Source: Bradyrhizobium sacchari (GTDB lineage Bacteria > Pseudomonadota > Alphaproteobacteria > Rhizobiales > Xanthobacteraceae). From it: a stretch of 64,000 bases of DNA. The notes under the pieces were generated by a model. That model worked only from the letters and a program-made list of their open reading frames with translations. It was not told where the DNA came from and searched no databases. The translations under genes and the position numbers were made by a program. The DNA lies in contig NZ_LWIG01000007.1 of the NCBI RefSeq assembly GCF_002068095.1, forward strand, positions 791,756 through 855,755. The letters run 5' to 3'. Positions 8,792-20,036 of this stretch are shown here, in pieces; within the stretch, counting starts at the first letter, position 1, and each line of letters opens with the position of its first letter.

Positions 8792-9760
8792 TCAATCAAT
8801 ATCATTCAACGTCGCGAACAGTGTCTGACGCGATGCGACCGCCGTGATGGCGCCGATCAGGACCGCCTGCACCGCGAGCACGACATAGCCGGACGGCCGC
8901 AGCGAGAAGGTGCCGAGCAGCGCCGCGAACTGATCCCCGACCGGGGTGCCGGAGAACCAGCCGGCGATCGACTCGGAGAAGCCGAACACCAGCATGGCGG
9001 CGCCGCCGCCGATTACGCCGCCTTCGAGGCCGAGCCTGAGGAAATGGCGCAGGAAGCGGTTGGCGATGTAGCGGTCGCCGGCGCCGACAAAGTGCAGCAC
9101 TTCGACGATCGGGCGGTTCGCCGCCATGGCGCCGCGGGTCGCGAACGACACCGAGATGATGGTCGCGATGATGACGAGCGCGAGGATGCCGAGGCCGGCG
9201 AGCACGGTGGCATTGGTCATCGAGCGCATGCGCTCGATCCAGGCTCGGTGATCGTCGACGCTGGCGCTTGGCGCCACTTGCGTCACGCGGGCACGCAAGG
9301 CACCGAGATCGAGCGGCGTGCCGGGCTGCACGCGCGCGATGATCATGCGCGGCACCGGCAGATCGTCCATCGACAGTCCCGTGCCGAGCCAGGGCTCGAG
9401 CAGCTTGCCGCTCTCGTCCCTGCTGAACGGCCTGACCTCGACGATGCCGGGCTGCGCGCGCATCGCCTCGGTCACGGCCGCGGTGTCGCGGTCGAGATCG
9501 CGTCCGGTTTGCGGGCGGACCTGGATGGTGATTTCGCTCGCGACCTCCGACTGCCACTCCGCGGCGGAGGCGCTGACCAGGAGCACCGTGCCCGTGGTCA
9601 TCGACGCCAGGAAGGTCATGATGGCGACGACGGCGACCAGCGCGCGGCCGTGGATCGAGGCGCGCGGCACGATCGGCGACATGTTGCGCGCCTTGGCCGG
9701 AAGCTGCGGACGCTCCTGTCCGAGATCGACCAGCACGCCGCGCTCGTCGGTCCTATTCAT
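8792..9760 (-). CDS. ftsX: Cell division protein FtsX
   Basis: Membrane partner of FtsE; together they control peptidoglycan hydrolases at the septum. The 322-residue protein has the FtsX layout: cytoplasmic N-terminus, first helix near residues 38-65, a periplasmic loop with EITIQVRPQTGRD and VRPFSRDESGKLLEPWLG, then three helices (ATVLAGLGILALVIIATIIS, the GLEGGVIGGGAAMLVFGF region, and a C-terminal VVLAVQAVLIGAITAVAS). Its ATG overlaps the ftsE stop by eight bases. Confidence 0.92.
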   Translation of the reverse strand: MNRTDERGVLVDLGQERPQLPAKARNMSPIVPRASIHGRALVAVVAIMTFLASMTTGTVLLVSASAAEWQSEVASEITIQVRPQTGRDLDRDTAAVTEAMRAQPGIVEVRPFSRDESGKLLEPWLGTGLSMDDLPVPRMIIARVQPGTPLDLGALRARVTQVAPSASVDDHRAWIERMRSMTNATVLAGLGILALVIIATIISVSFATRGAMAANRPIVEVLHFVGAGDRYIANRFLRHFLRLGLEGGVIGGGAAMLVFGFSESIAGWFSGTPVGDQFAALLGTFSLRPSGYVVLAVQAVLIGAITAVASRQTLFATLNDID

Positions 9761-10412
9761 AGACGTGCAGCCGTCCCTGATGCAGCACCAGCCGCCGCGC
9801 CTCGTACTGGTCCATCAGGCCGATATCGTGGGTGGCGATGATGACGGCGGTGCCTGATTTGTTGAGCTCGATGAAAAGCCGCAGCAGGCGGCGGCCGAGC
9901 GTCGGATCGACGCTGCCGGTCGGCTCGTCCGCGAGCAGCAGTTGCGGCCGCGAGATCACGGCGCGCGCGATCGCCGCGCGCTGCTTCTCGCCGCCAGAGA
10001 GGATCGGCGGCAAAGCATCCATGCGCTCGCCGAGCCCGACCCAGCGCAGAAGGTCGATGACCTCCTTGCGATAGCTCGACTCGCTGCGGCCCATGACACG
10101 GAACGGCAGCGCGACGTTCTCGTAGGTCGTCATGTGGTCGAGCAGGCGAAAGTCCTGCAGCACGATGCCGATGCGTTTGCGCAGGTCCGCGATCTCGTCC
10201 TTGCCGAGCTGCGAGATGTCGTGGCCGAACAGATTGACGAGGCCGCGCGTCGGCCGATGCGACAGGAACAACAAGCGCAGCAGCGAGGTCTTGCCGGCGC
10301 CGGATGGGCCGGTGAGGAACTGGAAGGAATGCGCCGGGATCTGGAAGCTGAGGTCGCGCAGGATCTCCGGCCCCAGACCGTAACGCAATCCGACATTTTC
10401 GAACCGAACCAA
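9753..10412 (-). CDS. ftsE: Cell division ATP-binding protein FtsE
   Basis: ABC ATPase of 219 residues that powers or gates FtsX. Walker A GPSGAGKT is at residues 35-42, the Q-loop is in IVLQDFRLLDH, the signature is LSGGEKQR, Walker B is LLLADEPTG and the H-loop is IATHD. The start is TTG at 10412, supported by GGAG six to seven bases upstream; no ATG fits. The upstream region is shared with the divergent zinc-ribbon gene and contains a perfect inverted repeat. Confidence 0.93.
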   Translation of the reverse strand: MVRFENVGLRYGLGPEILRDLSFQIPAHSFQFLTGPSGAGKTSLLRLLFLSHRPTRGLVNLFGHDISQLGKDEIADLRKRIGIVLQDFRLLDHMTTYENVALPFRVMGRSESSYRKEVIDLLRWVGLGERMDALPPILSGGEKQRAAIARAVISRPQLLLADEPTGSVDPTLGRRLLRLFIELNKSGTAVIIATHDIGLMDQYEARRLVLHQGRLHVYE

Positions 10413-10481
10413 GCTCAGCTCCGTTCGAGAGGGGGCGACAGGCGCGCCGCGGCGCGCTGCCTCACGCGATCAACGGTTTTT

Positions 10482-10516
10482 GCGACCGTTATGGTTTCCG
10501 ATTCGTTAACGGTCGC
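10482..10516. promoter_or_regulatory. Inverted repeat in the ftsE / zinc-ribbon divergent promoter region
   Basis: GCGACCGTTA (10482-10491) and TAACGGTCGC (10507-10516) form perfect ten-base arms around a 15-base spacer. It lies about 70 bases from the ftsE start and 60 from the other gene, where a regulator of both could bind. It could also be a hairpin in either leader. The repeat is seen directly; the role is inferred. Confidence 0.55.
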
Positions 10517-10574
10517 CTTGTAGCATCCAGGGCAACCGGCTCTCCAAGACCAGTCCATGCATCAAGGCTCGTCC

Positions 10575-11453
10575 ATGCATATCGTCTGCCCTCATTGTAC
10601 GACATCCTACGCGATCAAGCCCGCGAGCCTGGGGGCGAACGGACGGACGGTCCGCTGCTCCCGCTGCAAGGAGACCTGGGTCGCCTATGCCGAGGACGCC
10701 GTCGAGGAGGCGTCCGTCCCGGCCCTGGCGGCAGCCAGCCGGGCCGACGACCAGTCCGACCTCGCCGAGCAGTGGAACTCCTATGCCAAGGACGATAACG
10801 CCGCCGACCCCCCGGTGGTCGACAGCCCGTCGATCGCCAGCGACTGGCCGGCCGACAACGCCCAGGAGATCGAGGATGAGTGGTCAGCAGCGGCCCGGGC
10901 GGCCGAGGAAGACGCCGCCGGCGCGCAGCATCAATCCTGGTTCCGCAGCCTGTTCAGCCGGCGCGGCGCGCGGGTCAAGCGTCCGGTCCCCACTGTGGCG
11001 CCGCGAAAATCATATTTCGGCCTGCCGACCGCCTGCGCCGCTATGGCCGCCCTGGTGCTGGCCCTGATCATGTGGCGCGGCGACGTGGTGCGCCTGCTGC
11101 CGCAGACGGCGGCCTTCTACAAGATGGTCGGGCTCGAGGTGAACCTGCGCGGGCTGGCCTTCAAGGACGTCAAGCTCTCCAGCGAGACCGTTGACGGTAA
11201 GCAGGTGCTGGTGATCGAGGGCGTGATCGTCGGCCAGGGCAAGAAGCCGCTCGATATCCCGCGGCTGCGGTTTGCCGTGCGCGACGCTCAGGGCGCGGAG
11301 ATCTACGCCTGGAATACTGTGCTGGAACAGACCGTGCTGCAGCCCGGCGAGCGCGCCTTCTTCCGCTCGCGCCTGGCTTCGCCCCCGCCGGAGGGCCGCA
11401 ACATCGACGTCCGCTTCTTCAACCGGCGCGACATCGCCGGCGGCAGCGTATAA
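10575..11453 (+). CDS. MJ0042-type zinc-ribbon membrane protein
   Basis: A 292-residue protein. The first 35 residues are an MJ0042 zinc ribbon with C5, C8, C28 and C31 (CPHC, CSRC). An acidic, low-complexity linker follows (about residues 40-120), then a basic stretch and one membrane helix (about residues 146-166). The C-terminal part (EVNLRGLAFKDVKL, VIEGVIVGQGKK, ALQ-like beta pattern) resembles a DUF3426-type periplasmic beta domain. The open frame begins at 10557; the ATG at 10575 starts right at the ribbon. A response regulator follows 36 bases on. The function of the family is not known. Confidence 0.82.
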   Translation: MHIVCPHCTTSYAIKPASLGANGRTVRCSRCKETWVAYAEDAVEEASVPALAAASRADDQSDLAEQWNSYAKDDNAADPPVVDSPSIASDWPADNAQEIEDEWSAAARAAEEDAAGAQHQSWFRSLFSRRGARVKRPVPTVAPRKSYFGLPTACAAMAALVLALIMWRGDVVRLLPQTAAFYKMVGLEVNLRGLAFKDVKLSSETVDGKQVLVIEGVIVGQGKKPLDIPRLRFAVRDAQGAEIYAWNTVLEQTVLQPGERAFFRSRLASPPPEGRNIDVRFFNRRDIAGGSV

Positions 11454-11489
11454 TCGGCCGAGCGGGCGATTGATCCCAAGGTTGGTCTC

Positions 11490-11864
11490 ATGTCGAAAAT
11501 CCTGATCGCCGACGACGAGGATTCGATGCGCACGCTGGTGGCGCGCGCCATCGCCATGGACGGACACGTGACCGTGACGGCGCAGGACGGTGCCGAGGCG
11601 CTGGAGATCCTGACCCGCGAGGACGGCGCCTTCGACCTGCTGCTCACCGACATCCAGATGCCGGTGATGGACGGCATCGCGCTGGCCCTGTCCGCCGCGC
11701 GCGACTTCCCCGACCTGACGATTTTGCTGATGACGGGCTTTGCCGATCAGCGCGAGCGCGCGTCAAACTTGAATGCGCTGGTACATGACGTCGTGACAAA
11801 GCCGTTCTCGGTGGCGGATATCCGCACGGCGGTGGCGGATGCACTGGCGGCGAAGAAGGGGTAG
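11490..11864 (+). CDS. Single-domain response regulator (CheY/CpdR-like)
   Basis: A 124-residue receiver domain with no output domain. The acidic pocket is ILIADDEDSM (D8-D10), the phosphoacceptor Asp is in LLLTDIQMPVMDG, the switch Thr is in LLMTGFA, and the conserved Lys is in VTKPF. TGFA and its layout resemble CpdR, the alphaproteobacterial cell-cycle adaptor control protein, but nothing here proves that role. It follows the zinc-ribbon gene by 36 bases and may share its transcript, next to ftsEX. Confidence 0.85.
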   Translation: MSKILIADDEDSMRTLVARAIAMDGHVTVTAQDGAEALEILTREDGAFDLLLTDIQMPVMDGIALALSAARDFPDLTILLMTGFADQRERASNLNALVHDVVTKPFSVADIRTAVADALAAKKG

Positions 11865-11879
11865 CGGTATCGCCACATC

Positions 11880-11957
11880 GTCTTTGCGAGCATAGCGAAG
11901 AAATCCAGAGCCCCTCGGCGGAAGATTCTGGATTGCTTCGCTGCGCTCGCAATGACG
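11880..11957. repeat. Palindromic repeat, family A (copy 2)
   Basis: GTCTTTGCGAGC...GAAGAAATCCAGA faces TCTGGATTGCTTCGCTGCGCTCGCAATGACG. It has the same design as the copies at 4949-5033 and 37741-37820, with substitutions in the left arm. Confidence 0.82.
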
Positions 11958-11971
11958 GACAGTGTGGCGCG

Positions 11972-12046
11972 GTCGTAGCCCGCATGAGCGCAACGACATG
12001 CGGGACCCCTGGCCCCGGATATCGCTTCGCTCATCCGGGCTACGAG
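11972..12046. repeat. REP-like palindrome (CGTAGCCCG...CGGGCTACG)
   Basis: CGTAGCCCGCATGAGCGCAACGA at the left and ATATCGCTTCGCTCATCCGGGCTACG at the right form long imperfect arms around a CATGCGGGACCCCTGGCCCCGG centre. It lies beside family A copy 2 in the gap between the convergent response-regulator and DUF4175 genes. Confidence 0.75.
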
Positions 12047-12059
12047 AGCTGAGACGACC

Positions 12060-13211
12060 CTAAAAATCCTTCAGCAGCCGCTCGATATAATCGAGCTCGA
12101 TCTGCGGGCGGGAGGGATCGCCTAAGCGGCGGCGAAGCTCTTCGAGAATGCGGCGGACGCGCTGGGCGTCGATCTCGCCGGGAATCTTGACCGTGTAATC
12201 GTCGCCGAACTCACGGCCATGAAGCGGCCGGCCGAGCGGGTCGGTCTGATTGCCGCCGCTCTGCTGGCGGCCGGCGCGGTTACCGGGGCCATCGCCCTGC
12301 CCGTCGCCGTCGCCCTGCTGCATCGCCTCGGCCATCTTCTGCGCACCCTTGCGCAGGGCATCGAGCGCCTTGCCCTGCGAGTCCACGGCACCATCCGCGT
12401 TGCCCTCGCCGAGCTTCGAGCCGGCATCGCCCATGGCGCCGTCGGCAGCGTCCAGGCTGCCGTCGTCATCGCCCTGGTCGCCGTCCTGATCGCCATCCTG
12501 GCCGGACTGTCCCGGGTCGCCCTGCTGGCCCTTCTGACCCTGCTGCCCTTTCTGGCTCTTTTGCCCCTTTTGCGTGAGGCCGCGCTTGGCGAGCTCGTCC
12601 TGCAGCTTCTTCAGGCGGTCGCGCAGCGCCTGCTGGTCCTGCTGGAGGTCCGACATCGACTGGTCGCCCTGCTTGCCGCGCGAGCGGTCACGCCGGGAAT
12701 CCTGGCCCTGCTTGAAGGTCTTGTCGCGCAATTGCTGCTGCTTGCGGATCATGTCGCTGAGCTCGTTCAGCGCCTGCTCCATGTCGCTGTCGCCGGACTG
12801 CCCGGGCTGCGCCATCTGGAGATTTTCCATGATCTGCGCGAGCTGCTCGAGCATGCGCTGGGCCGCCTCGCGATTACCCTCGCGCGCCGCCTTCTCGATC
12901 TGCTTCAGCAGTTCATCGAGGTCGCGCTGCGTGATGACGTTGCGATCGCGATTGGAGGACTGACTTCGTTCCGTCGCGCGCTTGTATTCCTCGAGCTTCT
13001 GGATGGCGTCGGACTGGTTGCTCAGGCTCTTGCCGGATTCCTTCTGCCTGAGGCTGTCGCCGGAATCCTGCATCGCCTTTTCTGCGCTGTCGAGCAGCGC
13101 GTCGGGATCCTGATCCAGCTGGGCAGCGGCCGGCGAGACGCCGCCCAACAGCAGGGCGAGGCAGGCGATCGAGATCGCCTTGAAGACTGGCACGCGTGCT
13201 AGCTTCCGCAT
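12060..13211 (-). CDS. C-terminal half of a DUF4175/TIGR02302 protein, encoded separately with a signal peptide
   Basis: A 383-residue protein. It starts with a basic n-region and a hydrophobic core (KAISIACLALLLGGVSPAAAQ), a good Sec signal peptide. The mature part has coiled-coil helices (NVITQRDLDELLKQIEKAA, MLEQLAQIMENLQMAQPG), a low-complexity Gln/Gly/Asp/Lys stretch about residues 210-265, and the closing block RRILEELRRRLGDPSRP...DYIERLLKDF, which is the usual C-terminus of TIGR02302 proteins. Those proteins are normally one chain of roughly 850-900 residues. Here the ATG lies in another frame and overlaps the upstream gene by 13 bases. Periplasmic role unknown. Confidence 0.82.
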   Translation of the reverse strand: MRKLARVPVFKAISIACLALLLGGVSPAAAQLDQDPDALLDSAEKAMQDSGDSLRQKESGKSLSNQSDAIQKLEEYKRATERSQSSNRDRNVITQRDLDELLKQIEKAAREGNREAAQRMLEQLAQIMENLQMAQPGQSGDSDMEQALNELSDMIRKQQQLRDKTFKQGQDSRRDRSRGKQGDQSMSDLQQDQQALRDRLKKLQDELAKRGLTQKGQKSQKGQQGQKGQQGDPGQSGQDGDQDGDQGDDDGSLDAADGAMGDAGSKLGEGNADGAVDSQGKALDALRKGAQKMAEAMQQGDGDGQGDGPGNRAGRQQSGGNQTDPLGRPLHGREFGDDYTVKIPGEIDAQRVRRILEELRRRLGDPSRPQIELDYIERLLKDF

Positions 13212-15130
13212 TTCCGGTCCCGCGTAAACTGGTTGGCCCCGTCGTTGCCCGCCTTAGTCCGATTGCTCGCCGATTTCCGATAGGCCTGAAGCTGCTCCCG
13301 CAACGCGTCCTGCTGCCTCGACAGTTCTTCGAGCTGATCCGGCGTCGCTTTCTGGGTCTTCTGCTTCAGCTCGACGGCCTTGTCGAGGATGAGCTGGACC
13401 TCGGCGGGGAATGGCTGGCGAGGACCGAGCGGATTCTGCTCGGCCCGGCGGGCGAGATCGCGCACCTTGCCGGCCATCGCCTCGCGCAGCTTCTGCGTCA
13501 GCACCTTGAGCTCGTCCTCGCTGGCGCCGCGTTCCAGCGCCCGCTTCAGCGCGTCCTGCGCCGAGCGCAGCGCGGCGTTGACGCTGCCGGCGACACCGTC
13601 GTCCTCGATGGTGACGGCGAAGGCCCACATGCTCGCCACCACCTCGCGCAGCGCGTCGTCGGTGCGGGCCGCCTCGAGCTGGAGCGCGAGGCTGCGCAGG
13701 CCGAGATAGCAGCCTGCATCCGGCGTGAACAATTCGGGCGCGATCATCAGCGCGTCGAGCGCGGCGTAGACGTCGGAATTCTTGTTGGCGTCGAGCGCGA
13801 GGATGCGACGCTGCTCGATCAGCGCGCGCGCGAGCGAGTTGGTGAAGAGACGCTCGGGCAGGCGCATGTTGAACGGCTCGCTCTTCGCCTCGTTGCCGGC
13901 CTCGTCCTTGGCAGTGAGCGTCAGCGTGACGTCGGCGCCGGCATAGGGATCCTCGCTGAGATCCTTCACGGTCTGGCCGACGCCGTTGCGGGTGCGCGCA
14001 TTCGGCAGCACCAGCGGAAATTGCGGCGGCTGGAACAGCGGCCGCGCGGCGGCCCTGGCGTCGTCCTTGCTACCGTCCTTGGCATCGGCCGCGCGCAAGC
14101 CGATTTGCGCTTGGGCGCCGGTGACGCCGTAATCGTCCTCGATCTTGTAGGAGAGCTGGAGTCCGCCCCGCGCCTGGCGCTCCGGATCCTTGGCGAGTGC
14201 AATCGTCGGTGCGCGATCGGGCGTCGCCGCAAAGGCCCATTGCGGCTGGCCGGAAGGCGCACGGACATGCGCGGTGCCGTCGCCGGTGATGGCGAAATGC
14301 TTCTCGTTGGTGCCCTTTGGCGTGGCCTCGGTGGGAGCGACCTCCTTGAGGCCGCCGGAGACGACGACATCGAGGTTGCCGCCGGAAGAGCGCACGATCA
14401 GGGTCGAGCCGGCAGGAACGGCGAGCGGGCCGCTCGCCGGCAGCGCCGCGGCTTCCCTATTGGCGGCCGACAAGATGATTGGCGGCTTGCCGGTGTAGAG
14501 CGGCGGCGTGACCCAGGCATCGACGCGAATATTGGCCGGCGCCAGCACGCCGTTCCAGTCGAAAGCGGCCCCGAGGCGCATCGCACGCTCGTCGCCGGCG
14601 GCAAAGAAGGTGGCAACCAGCATCACCATGACGAGGGCGCGCAATGCCCAAGGATCATGCAGTGCAAGCCGCGGGCGTGGCAGACCGGCGCGGATGCGCT
14701 TGAGCGAGGCCAGCGTGCGCTCACGCTGCGCCCGCCACAACGCCTTCGCAATCGGGTCCTGCGAGGTCAGCGTGTCCGTGAGCGTGGTCGCCGGGCGATG
14801 GCGGATGCCGGAGCCGCGGTCGAGCCGGCTCAGCGCTTCCTCTCGGCTCGGCCAGCGGAAGCGAATCAGGGGCAACAGCGCGGCAATCGCAATGCCGGCA
14901 AAGATGATGAGACCGATGGCGCGCGCCAGGAACGGCAGCGCCAGCCAGAGCCCGGCCCAGGACACCACCAGGAACAGGCCGATGACGGTCAGCAGCCGCG
15001 CGAAATTTGGCCAGGCACGCTCCCACGCGATGGCATAGACGGCCCTGTCGAGGGCCTGCGCCAGCTTCAGCCGCGACAGAGCGTCGCCATCGCGGATCGG
15101 GTCTGACGGGTCGGGGGTGACGCCGTTCAA
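13199..15130 (-). CDS. N-terminal half of a DUF4175/TIGR02302 protein
   Basis: A 643-residue protein with three predicted membrane helices (about residues 43-60, 66-88 and 165-185), then a large soluble region: VDAWVTPPLYTGKPPI, YKIEDDYGVTGAQAQI and LPERLFTNSLARALIEQRR are recognisable TIGR02302 blocks. With the N-terminus inside, the soluble part lies in the periplasm. TTG at 15130 has GGAG six bases upstream. The chain stops after a coiled-coil segment, where the family normally continues into the part encoded by 12060-13211. Function of the family is not known; envelope biogenesis is a guess. Confidence 0.84.
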   Translation of the reverse strand: MNGVTPDPSDPIRDGDALSRLKLAQALDRAVYAIAWERAWPNFARLLTVIGLFLVVSWAGLWLALPFLARAIGLIIFAGIAIAALLPLIRFRWPSREEALSRLDRGSGIRHRPATTLTDTLTSQDPIAKALWRAQRERTLASLKRIRAGLPRPRLALHDPWALRALVMVMLVATFFAAGDERAMRLGAAFDWNGVLAPANIRVDAWVTPPLYTGKPPIILSAANREAAALPASGPLAVPAGSTLIVRSSGGNLDVVVSGGLKEVAPTEATPKGTNEKHFAITGDGTAHVRAPSGQPQWAFAATPDRAPTIALAKDPERQARGGLQLSYKIEDDYGVTGAQAQIGLRAADAKDGSKDDARAAARPLFQPPQFPLVLPNARTRNGVGQTVKDLSEDPYAGADVTLTLTAKDEAGNEAKSEPFNMRLPERLFTNSLARALIEQRRILALDANKNSDVYAALDALMIAPELFTPDAGCYLGLRSLALQLEAARTDDALREVVASMWAFAVTIEDDGVAGSVNAALRSAQDALKRALERGASEDELKVLTQKLREAMAGKVRDLARRAEQNPLGPRQPFPAEVQLILDKAVELKQKTQKATPDQLEELSRQQDALREQLQAYRKSASNRTKAGNDGANQFTRDRKCGS

Positions 15131-15298
15131 TCAGCTCTCCAGGTTGCCCGGTAGAGAGAAACGTACCACAACGGCAGCACTGAGGCATCCGTTCCTGTAC
15201 GGGAGAGACCCCTTTTCCCGCATAACACGAGGACGTGACTGGCCCGCCGCAACCCCGTAATTTCCGCGCCGCCCCCCGAGGGAAATGAAGGGAACGCC

Positions 15299-15682
15299 AT
15301 GGACAAGAAGATGCACGACAAGGGCCTCGAAGTCCGCAAAGCGGTACTGGGAGAAGCCTATGTCAACAACGCCCTGAAGAATGTCGACGATTTCAACCGT
15401 CCGTTCCAGGAGATGCTCAACGAATATTGCTGGGGCACGGTTTGGGGCCGCGAGGAGCTGCCGCGCAAGACCCGCAGCATGCTCAACATCGCGATGATCG
15501 CGATCCTCAACCGCCAGCATGAATTTCGCGCGCATCTGAAGGGCGCGCTGACCAATGGCGTGACGCGCGAGGAGATCCGCGAGATCCTGATGCAGGTCGC
15601 AATCTATGGCGGCATGCCGGCCGCCGTCGACAGTTTTCGCATCGCCCGCGAGGTGTTCGCGGAGATCGATGGGAAGGCGTGA
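15299..15682 (+). CDS. Carboxymuconolactone decarboxylase family protein
   Basis: A 127-residue all-helical protein of the CMD/AhpD superfamily, close to 4-carboxymuconolactone decarboxylase (PcaC) in layout: EVRKAVLGEAYVNNA at the start, MLNIAMIAILNRQHEFRAHLKGAL in the centre, and VAIYGGMPAAVDSFRIA near the end. It lacks the AhpD CxxC pair, so a peroxidase-partner role is unlikely. The ATG has GGGAACGCC directly upstream. It precedes a beta-hydroxyacid dehydrogenase gene, with a repeat in between. Substrate unknown. Confidence 0.85.
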   Translation: MDKKMHDKGLEVRKAVLGEAYVNNALKNVDDFNRPFQEMLNEYCWGTVWGREELPRKTRSMLNIAMIAILNRQHEFRAHLKGALTNGVTREEIREILMQVAIYGGMPAAVDSFRIAREVFAEIDGKA

Positions 15683-15700
15683 GGCAGGCCTCTCTCCGCT

Positions 15701-15835
15701 GTCGTCCCGGGGCGCGCGAAGCGCGAGCCCGGGATCCATATCGACGAGCCGATGTGGTTACGAGGACTCGGGGTAATCAGCTTCGCGCCACACTCCTCCT
15801 GGGGTTATGGGTCCCGGCCTTCGGCGGGACGACAC
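15701..15835. repeat. Palindromic repeat, family D (copy 1)
   Basis: GTCGTCCCGGGGCGCGCGAAGCGCGAGCCCGGGATCC at the left and ATGGGTCCCGGCCTTCGGCGGGACGAC at the right form nested inverted repeats. Related units lie at 16808-16929 and 29239-29289. The gap 15683-15893 holds nothing else. Confidence 0.75.
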
Positions 15836-15893
15836 TGAATTTCAGGGCTAACCGCTGCAATCACAACAACGAAAACGAAAAAAAGGAAACACC

Positions 15894-16799
15894 ATGGACA
15901 TCGGATTCATCGGGCTCGGAAACATGGGTTTCCCGATGGCGCGGCGGCTGATCGAGGCGGGACACAGGCTTGTCGTGTTCGACACGCGCAAGGAGGTCGT
16001 CGATAGGCTCGTGGCGCGCGGCGCCATTGCTGCGTCGTCACCGAAGGACGTCGCCGATCAGGTCGAGACCGTGATGGCGAGCCTGCCCTCGCTGCAGGCT
16101 TCGCTCGATGTCGCCACGGGCGCAAACGGCGTGATCGAAGGCACGCGCGTCAAGCGCTTCATCGATCTCTCCACCGTCGGCTCGGCGATGGCCGCGAAGA
16201 TTCACGGCCTGCTGGCCAAGCGCGACATCGTGCAGATCGACTGCCCCGTCTCCGGCGGCGTCGGCGGCGCCGAGAAGGGCACGCTGGCGGTGATGGTGTC
16301 GGGGCCAAAGGCGGAGTTCGAACTTCTGAAGCCCGCGCTCGCCGTGATCGGAAAAGTGTTCTTCATCGGCGAGAAGCCCGGCGCGGCGCAGACCATGAAG
16401 CTCGCCAACAATTTCCTGTCGGCGACCGCGATCGTGGCGACGTCGGAAGCCGTGGTGATGGGGGTCAAGGCCGGCCTCGATCCCGCCGTGATGATCGACG
16501 TCATCAACGCGGGCTCGGGGATGAACACCGCAAGCCGCGACAAGTTTCCGCGCTCGGTGCTGCCGCGTACGTTCGATTTCGGCTTCGCGACGGGACTGAT
16601 GGTGAAGGACGTGCGGCTGGCGCTGGAGGAGATGAAGCAGCTCGGCCTGTCGATGGAGGTCGCCGACGCCGTGGGGCGGCTGTGGGAGATCGTGATCAGC
16701 GCCGAAGGCGCGGAGTCGGATTTCACGGCGGCGATCAAGCCGATCGAGCAGAAGGCGGGCGTGGTGGTTGGGGGGAAAGGCGGATCGGCGGGGAAGTAG
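15894..16799 (+). CDS. NAD(P)-dependent beta-hydroxyacid dehydrogenase (3-hydroxyisobutyrate dehydrogenase family)
   Basis: A 301-residue enzyme. The N-terminal nucleotide motif GFIGLGNMGFPMA is at residues 4-16, the substrate-binding block DCPVSGGVGGAEKGTL is near 120, and the catalytic lysine lies in KLANNFLSA near 170. The ATG follows AAGGAAACACC. The family oxidises 3-hydroxyisobutyrate, tartronate semialdehyde and similar acids; the exact substrate cannot be read from the sequence. A carboxymuconolactone-decarboxylase-like gene precedes it. Confidence 0.87.
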   Translation: MDIGFIGLGNMGFPMARRLIEAGHRLVVFDTRKEVVDRLVARGAIAASSPKDVADQVETVMASLPSLQASLDVATGANGVIEGTRVKRFIDLSTVGSAMAAKIHGLLAKRDIVQIDCPVSGGVGGAEKGTLAVMVSGPKAEFELLKPALAVIGKVFFIGEKPGAAQTMKLANNFLSATAIVATSEAVVMGVKAGLDPAVMIDVINAGSGMNTASRDKFPRSVLPRTFDFGFATGLMVKDVRLALEEMKQLGLSMEVADAVGRLWEIVISAEGAESDFTAAIKPIEQKAGVVVGGKGGSAGK

Positions 16800-16807
16800 T
16801 TTCCGTG

Positions 16808-16929
16808 GTGGTCCCGGCGAAGGCCGGGACCATAACCACCGAGTTGGATTTGGCGAAGGCTGGTCATGACCACTTCGCACTACGATTTGTTTGCGGAGTA
16901 TGGGTCCCGGCCTCCGCCGGAACGACAAC
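16808..16929. repeat. Palindromic repeat, family D (copy 2)
   Basis: TGGTCCCGGCGAAGGCCGGGACCA is a compact palindrome, and ATGGGTCCCGGCCTCCGCCGGAACGAC follows at the right end, as in copy 1. The unit fills most of the gap between the convergent dehydrogenase and lysA genes, where it may terminate both. Confidence 0.75.
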
Positions 16930-16967
16930 GAGTTTGAGGCGCGTTCATACCGCCCCTTATCCTCTCC

Positions 16968-18233
16968 TCACAGCCACGGCGCCGGCGTATCCATCGCGAT
17001 CAGCTGCTCGACCTCCACGCGCGGGCGCACCACGGCGTATTGGTCACCCTTCACCAGCACCTCGGGCACCAGCGGCCGCGTGTTGTAGGTGCCGGCCTGC
17101 ACGGCGCCATAGGCGCCGGCGGTCATGATGGCGAGGAGATCGCCCGCCTTCGGCGTCGGCAGCGTGCGGTCGAGCGCGAGATAGTCGCCGGTCTCGCAGA
17201 CCGGACCGACGACGTCAGCCGTGATCGTCGCGGCATCCTTTGCCGGCAGCGTCACCGGCAGGATATCGTGATGGGCTTCATACAGCGTCGGCCGGATCAG
17301 ATCGTTCATCGCGGCGTCGATGATGACGAAGTTCTTGCCGTCGCCGTGCTTCACATAGATCACCTTGGCGACCAGGATGCCGGCATTGCCGACGATCATG
17401 CGACCCGGCTCGAACATCAGCGTGCAGCCGAGATTGTGGCTGACGCGCTTGACCATGGCGGCATAGGCGGCGGGCGCCGGCGGCGCCTCGCGGTCCATGT
17501 AGTAGGGAATGCCGAGGCCGCCGCCGAAATCGACGTGGCTGATGTCGTGGCCGTCGCTGCGCAGCGTCTGCACGAATTCGGAGAGGATGCGGAACGCGGT
17601 CTCCATGCCGGAGAGATCAGTGATCTGGCTGCCGATATGCACGTCGGTCCCGGTCACCTGGATTCCGGGCAGCTTCGCTGCGCGCGCATAGACCTCGCGG
17701 GCATGCACGATCGGGATGCCGAACTTGTTCTCGGACTTGCCGGTGGAGATTTTTGCATGCGTGCCGGCATCGACGTCGGGATTGACGCGCAACGAGATCC
17801 GCGCGGTCTTGCCCGTCTCGGTCGCAAGACGCGACAGCAGTTCGAGCTCAGGCTCGGATTCGACGTTGAGACAGAGGATGTCGGCGGCCAGCGCGGCGCG
17901 CAGCTCGTCTTCCGTCTTGCCGACGCCGGAGAACACGATCTTGCTCGCCGGGATGCCGGCGGCCAGCGCGCGCTTCAGCTCGCCGCCCGAGACCACGTCG
18001 GCGCCGGCGCCCAGCCTGGCCATCGTGCGCAGCACCGACTGATTGGAGTTCGCCTTCATGGCGTAGCAGACCAGCACCTTCTCGCCGGCGAAAGCCTCGG
18101 TGAAGACGCGGTAGTGCCGCTCCAGCGTCGCGGTCGAATAGCAATAGAACGGCGTGCCGACGGTTGCGGCCAGCTCGGACAGGTTCACCGCCTCGGCGTG
18201 CAGCACGCCGTTGCGGTAGTCGAAATGGTTCAT
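16968..18233 (-). CDS. lysA: Diaminopimelate decarboxylase
   Basis: Final step of lysine synthesis: meso-diaminopimelate to L-lysine and CO2, using PLP. The 421-residue protein has the PLP lysine K60 in CYAMKANSN, the HIGSQI block, GGGLGIPY, EPGRMIVG and GPVCETGD with the active-site Cys and Glu. The length is typical. It follows lptM by about 23 bases, in the conserved argH-lptM-lysA order. Confidence 0.96.
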   Translation of the reverse strand: MNHFDYRNGVLHAEAVNLSELAATVGTPFYCYSTATLERHYRVFTEAFAGEKVLVCYAMKANSNQSVLRTMARLGAGADVVSGGELKRALAAGIPASKIVFSGVGKTEDELRAALAADILCLNVESEPELELLSRLATETGKTARISLRVNPDVDAGTHAKISTGKSENKFGIPIVHAREVYARAAKLPGIQVTGTDVHIGSQITDLSGMETAFRILSEFVQTLRSDGHDISHVDFGGGLGIPYYMDREAPPAPAAYAAMVKRVSHNLGCTLMFEPGRMIVGNAGILVAKVIYVKHGDGKNFVIIDAAMNDLIRPTLYEAHHDILPVTLPAKDAATITADVVGPVCETGDYLALDRTLPTPKAGDLLAIMTAGAYGAVQAGTYNTRPLVPEVLVKGDQYAVVRPRVEVEQLIAMDTPAPWL

Positions 18234-18256
18234 GGCGTTGGCTCAGTTGTCCCAGC

Positions 18257-18544
18257 CTAGCGGCTGGGCTTTTCGTCCAGGAGCGGGTCGAGGATAAACG
18301 ATTTTTTGCTGCCCTTGGACGCCACCGGCGCGTCCGCGCCGGTGGTGGGGTTGAACAGGCTCGGCGTCTTCTGGGCTGCGGTCTCGGTGTCGGTTGGAGC
18401 CGCGACGTTGGCCGTGGACGCGCCGGAGGCGGTCGGCGGCAGGTCGAGGGGACCTTTGCGGCCGCAGCCGGCAAGCGCGAGCGCCGTCAGGCTCAAGACA
18501 ATGATGGCCCACCCCGAGCCGGCCGGGCGAAACTTTGACGTCAC
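18257..18544 (-). CDS. lptM: LptM-type outer-membrane lipoprotein (YifL)
   Basis: A 95-residue protein with a lipoprotein signal peptide: hydrophobic helix WAIIVLSLTALALAG and lipobox LALAGC. GRKGPLDLPP right after the cysteine is the hallmark of the LptM/YifL family, which assists LptD maturation at the outer membrane. The tail is low in complexity (Ala, Thr, Pro). It lies just upstream of lysA, as in many proteobacteria. Family identity is strong; function is taken from the Escherichia coli homologue. Confidence 0.88.
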   Translation of the reverse strand: MTSKFRPAGSGWAIIVLSLTALALAGCGRKGPLDLPPTASGASTANVAAPTDTETAAQKTPSLFNPTTGADAPVASKGSKKSFILDPLLDEKPSR

Positions 18545-18638
18545 GACGAAATCCCCACTACGCGGGGCGCACCATACAGAGATTGGCGCGCTCTGGCGAG
18601 AGCCGGATGACCATGAAACATAAGCGAAATTTTGCTCC

Positions 18639-20036
18639 TCAGCCCAATTTTCGCTCTTTTTCCAGCCGCTTCGCCCAGCTCTTTGCCTGCGACGCCACGT
18701 TCTTCGGCGCGGTGCCGCCGAAACTGGTGCGGCTCTTCACCGACGATTCGACCGAGAGCACGCCGAGCACGTCCTTGGTGATCTTCGGCTCGATCGCCTG
18801 CATCTCCTTGAGCGGCAGCTCGTGCAGCGCCATGCCGTCCTCGGCCGCCTTGGCGACGATGCGGCCGGTGACGTGGTGGGCCTCGCGGAACGGCATCTTC
18901 AGGGTCCGCACCAGCCAGTCGGCGAGATCGGTCGCCGTGGCATATCCCTCACCGGCGGCGGCCTTCATCCTGGCTTCGTCAGGGACGAGATCGCGGACCA
19001 TCCCGGTCATGGCACGGATCGCCAGCGACAGGGCGGCAAAGCCCTCCATGGCGCCCTGCTTGTCCTCCTGCATGTCCTTTTGATAGGCGAGCGGCAGGCC
19101 CTTCATCACGATCAGAAGGCCGTTGAGCGCGCCGATGACGCGGCCGGTCTTGGCCCGCACCAGCTCGGCTGCGTCCGGATTGCGCTTCTGCGGCATGATC
19201 GACGAGCCCGTGGTGAACTTGTCGCTGAGCCGGATCATCCCGACCAGCGGCGAGGTCCAGATCACGATCTCCTCGGCAAAGCGCGACATATGTACGGCGC
19301 AGATCGAGGCCGCCGACAGCGCCTCCAGCACGAAGTCGCGGTCGGAGACGGCGTCGAGCGAGTTCGCCATCGGGCGGTCGAAGCCAAGCGCCTTCGCGGT
19401 GGTGTGGCGGTCGATCGGGAACGAGGTGCCGGCGAGCGCGGCAGCGCCGAGCGGCGATTCATTGAGCCGCTTGCGCGCGTCCTGGAAACGGCCGCGATCG
19501 CGCGCGGCCATCTCGACATAGGCGAGCAGATGATGACCGAAGGTCACTGGCTGCGCGGTCTGCAGATGGGTGAAGCCGGGCATCACGGTGCCGGCATGCT
19601 CCAGCGCGCGTTCCACCAGAGCCTGCTGAAACGCGGCGAGCGCGGCATCGGTCTCGTCGAGCACGTCGCGGACGTAGAGACGGAAGTCGGTTGCGACCTG
19701 GTCGTTGCGCGAACGCGCGGTGTGCAGGCGGCCGGCGGCGGGGCCGATCAGTTCCGACAGGCGGCTCTCGACATTCATATGGATGTCCTCGAGCGCGCGC
19801 TTGAATTCAAAGCCGCCCTCGCCGATCTCTGACAAAATCGTGTCTAGACCCTTGCCGATATTTTTCGCATCAGAGGCCGTGATGATGCCCTGGCTGGCGA
19901 GCATCGCGGCGTGGGCCTTGGACGCGGCAATGTCCTGGGCAAAGAGGTGACGATCGACGTCGATGGAGACGTTGATCTCTTCCATGATCTCATCGGGACG
20001 TTCCGAGAACCGGCCGCCCCACATCTTGTTGCTCAT
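18639..20036 (-). CDS. argH: Argininosuccinate lyase
   Basis: Splits argininosuccinate into arginine and fumarate. The 465-residue protein of the fumarase/aspartase superfamily starts MWGGRFSE and has [36 protein letters not shown] and the signature [12 protein letters not shown] near residue 285. The ATG is at 20036 and the tlpA gene is divergent, about 105 bases between starts. lptM follows after 94 bases. Confidence 0.97.

Follow-up and report, generated by a model that had tools for sequence, protein, structure and literature searches.

In the window (the whole stretch of 64,000 nucleotides of Bradyrhizobium sacchari DNA that was analysed), a gene of the TIGR02302/DUF4175 family is present as two overlapping genes, and this division is a real, conserved fission in a known family. 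The fission is very probably functional. The reading that we favour, at a probability of roughly 80%, is a functional fission by an old module that both splits the chain and exports the freed part, that has spread by recombination, and that sends the C-terminal half to the compartment it has in the single chain.

Results

The N-terminal gene (ORF1; 13199..15130, minus strand), defined by its frame and by the TIGR02302 profile, starts with TTG, ends with TAG at 13199-13201 and encodes a predicted inner-membrane protein of 643 residues, here called the N protein. The C-terminal gene (ORF2; 12060..13211, minus strand), defined by frame, TIGR02302 profile and hydropathy, starts with ATG and encodes the C protein of 383 residues, which is helical, Gln/Gly-rich and predicted to be exported. 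Reading of the frames places the overlap, from this ATG to the TAG, at 13 bases (13199..13211, minus strand), across which the two reading frames differ; the coordinates and lengths given for it in a first-pass annotation of this DNA are correct. The locus is therefore unlike the one continuous TIGR02302 chain of about 850-900 residues. Against the TIGR02302 model (851 positions), ORF1 scores 691 bits over positions 3-585 and ORF2 scores 295 bits over positions 496-850, which bears out the annotation's placing of the family's N-terminal blocks in the first frame and its C-terminal block in the second. The two ranges overlap because an extra, repeat-like helical region is present at the junction. 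The N protein passes the curated NCBIfam cut-off for TIGR02302 (394.3) and the C protein alone falls below it; in the search with DUF4175 (Pfam PF13779; gathering cut-off 27.3), the N protein reaches 601.6 bits over positions 2-535 and the C protein, also above the cut-off, 267.3 bits with its best stretch at 535-825. A profile search of the window's own genome at E 0.001 gave no further TIGR02302 match.

The three membrane helices that the annotation had given to the first frame are seen as three TM-like stretches in the hydropathy profile of ORF1, at residues 43-72, 58-93 and 160-180. The first two merge (residues 43-93; 14852..15004, minus strand), and the third lies at 14591..14653 (minus strand). 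The loop between the second and third stretches contains 15 K/R and 7 D/E in the window's N protein. Because of these three TM-like stretches and the positive loop between the second and the third, the C-terminal part of the single chain should be periplasmic, and the N protein downstream of the third stretch is likewise predicted to be periplasmic. In ORF2, the sole TM-like stretch is the signal-peptide region.

The neighbours of the split gene over 8792-20036 of the window are conserved in most of the 40 loci checked. We take them to be, in order, ftsX, ftsE, a zinc-ribbon protein and a CpdR-like regulator, then the split gene, and beyond it presumably a carboxymuconolactone-type gene, a HIBADH-like gene, lysA, a small lipoprotein-like gene and argH.

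The occurrence of the split in the genus was determined with a profile of the signal peptide and the helix pair that follows it (helix pair 2, below), which matched 82 of 265 Bradyrhizobium genomes (E 1e-4); this profile was built from two module types, A and B, and further module versions could escape it. By score, the 82 matches comprise 64 of the window type (type A), 11 of a second type (type B) and 7 others, namely G682 (type A'), G662 (a damaged type A copy) and five divergent matches, which once read proved to be of type C (G784, G672) and type B' (G779, G701, G700). Split loci were read at the DNA level for 35 of the 64 type A and 10 of the 11 type B matches. In a TIGR02302 search of 117 genomes of the genus, the window-type two-piece match was present in 27 (the window's own included) and the second two-piece form in 5, and by our own count about 80 have one open frame for this gene; G006 had no TIGR02302 match, and in G028, G033 and G073 the gene is incomplete or cut at contig ends. 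Each of the 32 split genomes has exactly two matches and, therefore, no extra full-length chain.

The arrangement of the junction is constant within each type. In 35/35 window-type loci read, the ATG lies at the identical 13-base overlap and the TAG is identical, so that close relatives do share the split, as had been asked of them; type A' (G682) has the same ATG and TAG. In types B (10/10 read) and B' (3/3), the stop is followed by 3 bases and then an ATG in frame: TAG CTC ATG in eight of the ten type B loci, with CCC or CTG as the spacer in one each, and TGA CGC ATG in all three of type B'. In type C, the ATG comes 10 bases after a TGA (2/2). Single chains were read at the DNA level at 58 loci, which, less 4 repeats, represent 54 genomes of the genus; each has one open frame, and none carries a pair 1 or pair 2 motif of the module described below. 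Loci L003, L016, L032 and L025 were left out as second copies of the same genomes and L052 as damaged, as was L213 in the comparison of module with core.

We also compared synonymous and nonsynonymous changes among 35 type A alleles. The dN/dS ratio was 0.11 for the periplasmic core, 0.07 for the C-terminal block, 0.13 for pair 1 and 0.08 for pair 2, and 0.20 for the first two membrane helices and 0.18 for a loop; it was higher in the first 20 codons (0.39), in the N-protein tail (0.38) and in the signal peptide (0.37). Most parts of both genes are thus under purifying selection, and both fission products are retained (35/35 loci) and constrained.

Two further features concern the start of the N gene. 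Its TTG sits directly behind an in-frame stop, and its first 20 codons (15071-15130, minus strand) have a pS of 0.09, compared with 0.21-0.34 in other core regions of the 35 type A alleles, which looks as if a second signal were present there.

These results bear on the alternative that the junction reflects a frameshift mutation, a decayed gene or a sequencing error. Such events do occur in the family. In G091, a single-chain copy (L052) carries a plain frameshift and has no signal peptide, in contrast to the conserved split, and in G662, a genome of one contig, both frames of a type A copy (L213) are disturbed near the junction and the type A arrangement of ATG and TAG is lacking; this copy is a pseudogene or an assembly error. 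Against this explanation, the overlap, start and stop are the same in 35/35 window-type loci (G662 counted apart), no part of either gene reaches a dN/dS of 0.4, and the junction DNA is without a counterpart in single chains. A frameshift or error at the window junction is ruled out by conservation across species together with constraint, and the alternative as a whole keeps next to no probability. The annotation had preferred a functional fission to a simple frameshift and had named, as the observation that would speak for the frameshift, an uninterrupted frame through 13199-13211 that aligns with conserved internal sequence. We looked for such a frame and did not find it, and the same split in all 35 loci, the mostly purifying selection and the absence of the junction from single chains uphold the functional fission.

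The second frame had been said to open with a Sec signal peptide, and residues 1-30 of the C protein (13122..13211, minus strand) are indeed Sec-like by a simple sequence rule, with a charged n-region and an uncharged hydrophobic core; cleavage is expected after AAA. With thresholds of our own, chosen after the sequences were seen, 52/52 split C-halves pass this rule, compared with 13/214 ORFs of at least 100 aa from the window, a control set that contains real genes. An A-x-A motif is present in 32 of the 52 C proteins (24/35 of type A, 2/10 of type B, 3/3 of B', 2/2 of C, and A'), and is missing from the damaged G662 peptide. We infer that the C protein is exported to the periplasm, the same place that this part would have in the single chain.

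As judged from the sequence comparisons, the junction is an inserted module. Its order is helix pair 1, which ends the N protein, then the stop and start, the signal peptide, and helix pair 2, with which the C protein proper begins. By profile comparison, pair 1 (N residues 573-620; 13271..13414, minus strand) is a diverged copy of host helices H3-H4, and pair 2 (C residues 37-76; 12984..13103, minus strand) a diverged copy of host region H5, H3-H4 and H5 being our own names. In single-chain relatives, the sequence on one side of the cut continues directly into that on the other, with no counterpart of the junction DNA. Type C is foreign only in its middle, and its two flanks match local single chains that we selected for comparison (0.77-0.99 in alignment windows from residue 401 on). 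The profiles of the two pairs match the family's own downstream helices (probability 92.5 for pair 1 and 94.5 for pair 2; pairwise E 5e-7 and 8e-8, respectively), which makes the insert a diverged duplicate of a portion of this protein. Compared by eye, the module's stop, start and signal peptide occupy the place of the Gln/Gly-rich linker.

This homology raises the alternative that the splits are convergent, each lineage having split its own gene through a duplication of helices already present in it and the acquisition of a stop, a start and a signal peptide. Both the homology of the module to host helices and the variation in junction detail (the 13-base overlap of A and A', the TGA and ATG 10 bases on of C, and the in-frame stop, 3 bases and ATG of B and B') would fit such a history. 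However, in a set of 8 modules and 8-9 host copies that we picked and trimmed ourselves, modules of different types were 0.56 identical to each other in pair 1 (0.48-0.88) and 0.53 in pair 2 (0.39-0.87), compared with 0.28 and 0.26, respectively, to host copies and 0.23-0.32 to their own host copy. Between types A and B, 27/53 positions of pair 1 and 20/40 of pair 2 are identical. The resemblance between modules is thus roughly double that between a module and its own host copy, and we regard convergence as quite improbable.

The modules do not all lie at the same site. By eye, two sites can be told apart, separated by ~90 residues of the family chain, with types A, A' and C inserted before this stretch and types B and B' behind it; the type A insert lies just after Pfam position 535, and those of A' and C likewise. 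In a tree of the N core (N-terminal 470 residues, 111 DNA rows, with 15 of 20 out-of-genus loci left out), A, B, B', C and A' are placed apart among single-chain rows, and the distribution of split and single forms needs 5 changes. Support is 100 for B, B' and C and 81 for the type A fork, which has support 100 in a separate protein tree. The fork that decides whether A and B are sisters is unsupported, and four lineages are therefore possible; the sequences point to four or five host lineages that carry related modules, at one or the other of two sites.

In a tree of rpoB and rpoC (90 rows, RpoB in all 90 and the RpoC frame in 59), the split and single forms need 8 changes, and well-supported branches force 7 for the single-chain label. 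Part of this patchiness may come from recombination of the rpo genes themselves. A tree of flanking genes (57 rows, 3 of 60 loci with little flank having been left out) gave a similar patchwork of split and single forms.

The module and its host gene also differ in their distances. Within type A, the identity of the module (0.918) equals that of the N core (0.923); between A and B it is 0.55 for the module and 0.883 for the core, and between A and C 0.53 and 0.77. Because module and core are equally diverged within A, and the module is far more diverged than the core between the two types, the modules seem to predate the host split of A from B. Between A and A' (G682), the module is 0.87 identical, yet the core only 0.78. 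The A' gene is a mosaic: with the two halves numbered as one sequence, residues ~321-800 are closer to type A, and the outer parts mostly resemble more closely the local single chains, likewise selected by us. Along the type A gene, identity to neighbouring single chains, in comparison groups chosen by us, is 0.82-0.95 up to residue 480, except for 0.69 in one variable loop, and drops to 0.66 and 0.64 over residues 481-560, a stretch in which single chains across the genus are still 0.86-0.89 identical to each other. A module tree groups the modules by site and not by host, a weak grouping with support of 71/76 on 88 columns with long branches.

Split forms found in distant parts of the genus could also descend from a single ancient split at its base, inherited vertically with many losses and no horizontal spread, and one gain followed by losses is formally possible. 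Such a history would have to accommodate the eight split/single changes on the rpoB/rpoC tree, the lack of any module trace in single chains inside the split clade, the disagreement between module and core distances, and the mosaic gene of G682. We consider it unlikely, if less so than convergence. The simplest reading of the sequences is that old module versions were spread by homologous recombination and were in places replaced again by single-chain alleles.

We found no donor of the module outside the genus in profile searches of class, order, phylum and family genomes and in a GTDB scan. The profile of the type B stretch matched 26/289 genomes of the class, the window's own genome at 1e-11 and 25 others with values of 2e-6 to 8e-4, where the match lay within frames of 571-1008 aa. 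The profile of the signal peptide and pair 2 matched 13/297 genomes of the order (5 in the genus and 8 weak), and that of pair 1 matched 7/249 genomes of the phylum (3 in the genus and 4 weak) and 7/238 of the family (6 in the genus and 1 weak). The GTDB scan for the type B stretch returned 5 loci, all from Bradyrhizobium. A comparable split was not seen outside the genus in TIGR02302 searches of 129 family, 130 order and 124 class genomes, a few of them of the genus, in the tables of which splits with a single in-frame stop could hide. The out-of-genus two-piece matches, part of which were read, resemble contig edges, in-frame neighbours, a second copy (G119) and an apparent stop (G180), and the 20 out-of-genus loci that were read each have one open frame.

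Discussion

We propose that the ancestral TIGR02302/DUF4175 protein was a single-chain envelope protein with three membrane helices followed by a long periplasmic part, and that the inserted module would have cut this chain in two. The module would give the N protein a new helical end and the C protein a new helical beginning, with the stop, the start and the Sec signal between them. Cut off without a signal, the C part would be retained in the cytoplasm, a problem of localisation that the inserted signal peptide would solve. The N protein would remain in the inner membrane, and the 13-base overlap may couple the translation of the two genes.

Because the two genes are adjacent, overlap and are constrained, the halves would be expected to work together. 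The alternative is that the C protein has separated from the N protein and functions independently as a soluble protein of the periplasm, in which case a new function would have arisen. The presence of a signal peptide and the lack of any further TM-like stretch are what such a protein should show. However, the genes are adjacent and overlapping in 35/35 window-type loci read, and none of the 32 split genomes holds a single chain in reserve. We give this alternative a minor share of the probability, larger than that of any other considered here.

Conversely, a fused protein could still be produced, by frameshifting or by reading through the stop. In 13/13 loci of types B and B' (L060-L064, L207, L210, L211, L214-L218), a single stop and a 3-base spacer separate two genes that share a reading frame, and read-through would therefore yield one chain. 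This register, however, follows from the fixed 3-base spacer, and the frames differ in the window type. Moreover, in a fusion the signal peptide would probably become a fourth membrane helix and leave the C part on the wrong side. Continued production of a fused protein is thus highly improbable, only slightly less so than a frameshift or error.

If the two halves do cooperate, they would probably dock through the insert helices, pair 1 of the N protein against pair 2 of the C protein, because both pairs are homologous to helices of one chain. In a structure model of the read-through product of a type B locus (mean pLDDT 52, pTM 0.28), helices are present at the insert, with a confidence too low for contacts to be assessed; the model of the window's N protein was poor as well. 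A more tentative idea, which we hold to be possible and a good deal less likely than the fission itself, is that of a genus-specific, recombining fission cassette of roughly 400-450 bases, placed at either of two sites in the gene, which would end one protein, start an exported second one and leave matching halves of a duplicated helical bundle by which the pieces find each other again (split and staple).

The single-chain TIGR02302/DUF4175 proteins belong, by profile matches over the whole length, to the same family as the split pair, which differs from them in consisting of two chains, in carrying an additional helical module where the chain is cut and in having a signal peptide on the C part. 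For two of them, likened to the split pair by family and description and not by direct comparison of sequences, there are published data. RSP_0730 of R. sphaeroides is described, in the part of the study used here, as a CenR-regulon protein that has TM domains, lacks a signal peptide and is not essential by Tn-seq (PMC9275681), and deletion in Azorhizobium caulinodans leads, according to the title of Sato et al. 2016 (via PMC6842974), to overproduction of exopolysaccharide and failure of infection. AdvA of Acinetobacter baumannii, a critical cell division protein with an annotated DUF4175 domain, shares the domain name and, going by the portion of the paper concerned, has two predicted TM helices; the likeness is one of description alone (PMC7481262). 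In a study of essentiality in Bradyrhizobium (PMC8225791), the passages that this analysis covered do not name the gene.

The closest parallel to this fission is the Geobacter pair GSU1496/GSU1497, in which one ancestral type IV pilin is inferred to have been split into adjacent genes, with duplication, degeneration and separation as the proposed course (PMC5174107). As in the window, the genes are adjacent and the C-part has its own signal peptide; the Geobacter pair differs in being another protein, and the sections of that paper drawn on here do not describe a module recurring at several sites or in several lineages (PMC5174107). Outside subscription papers and preprints, our search of the literature found no title that reports a split of TIGR02302/DUF4175 or such a fission in Bradyrhizobium. 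The apparent novelty thus lies, within a known family, in a module that recurs at two sites and seems to have spread.

Gene fission is generally portrayed as a one-off accident in a single lineage. In the present case, the cuts in four or five host lineages, at two sites in all, appear to be marked by related modules, which also supply the export signal of the freed half. The single-chain and split forms of one conserved envelope protein among close relatives make up a natural series, which offers a handle on DUF4175, a domain of unknown function. Overall, the results suggest a route by which a membrane protein may be split without one half reaching the wrong compartment.
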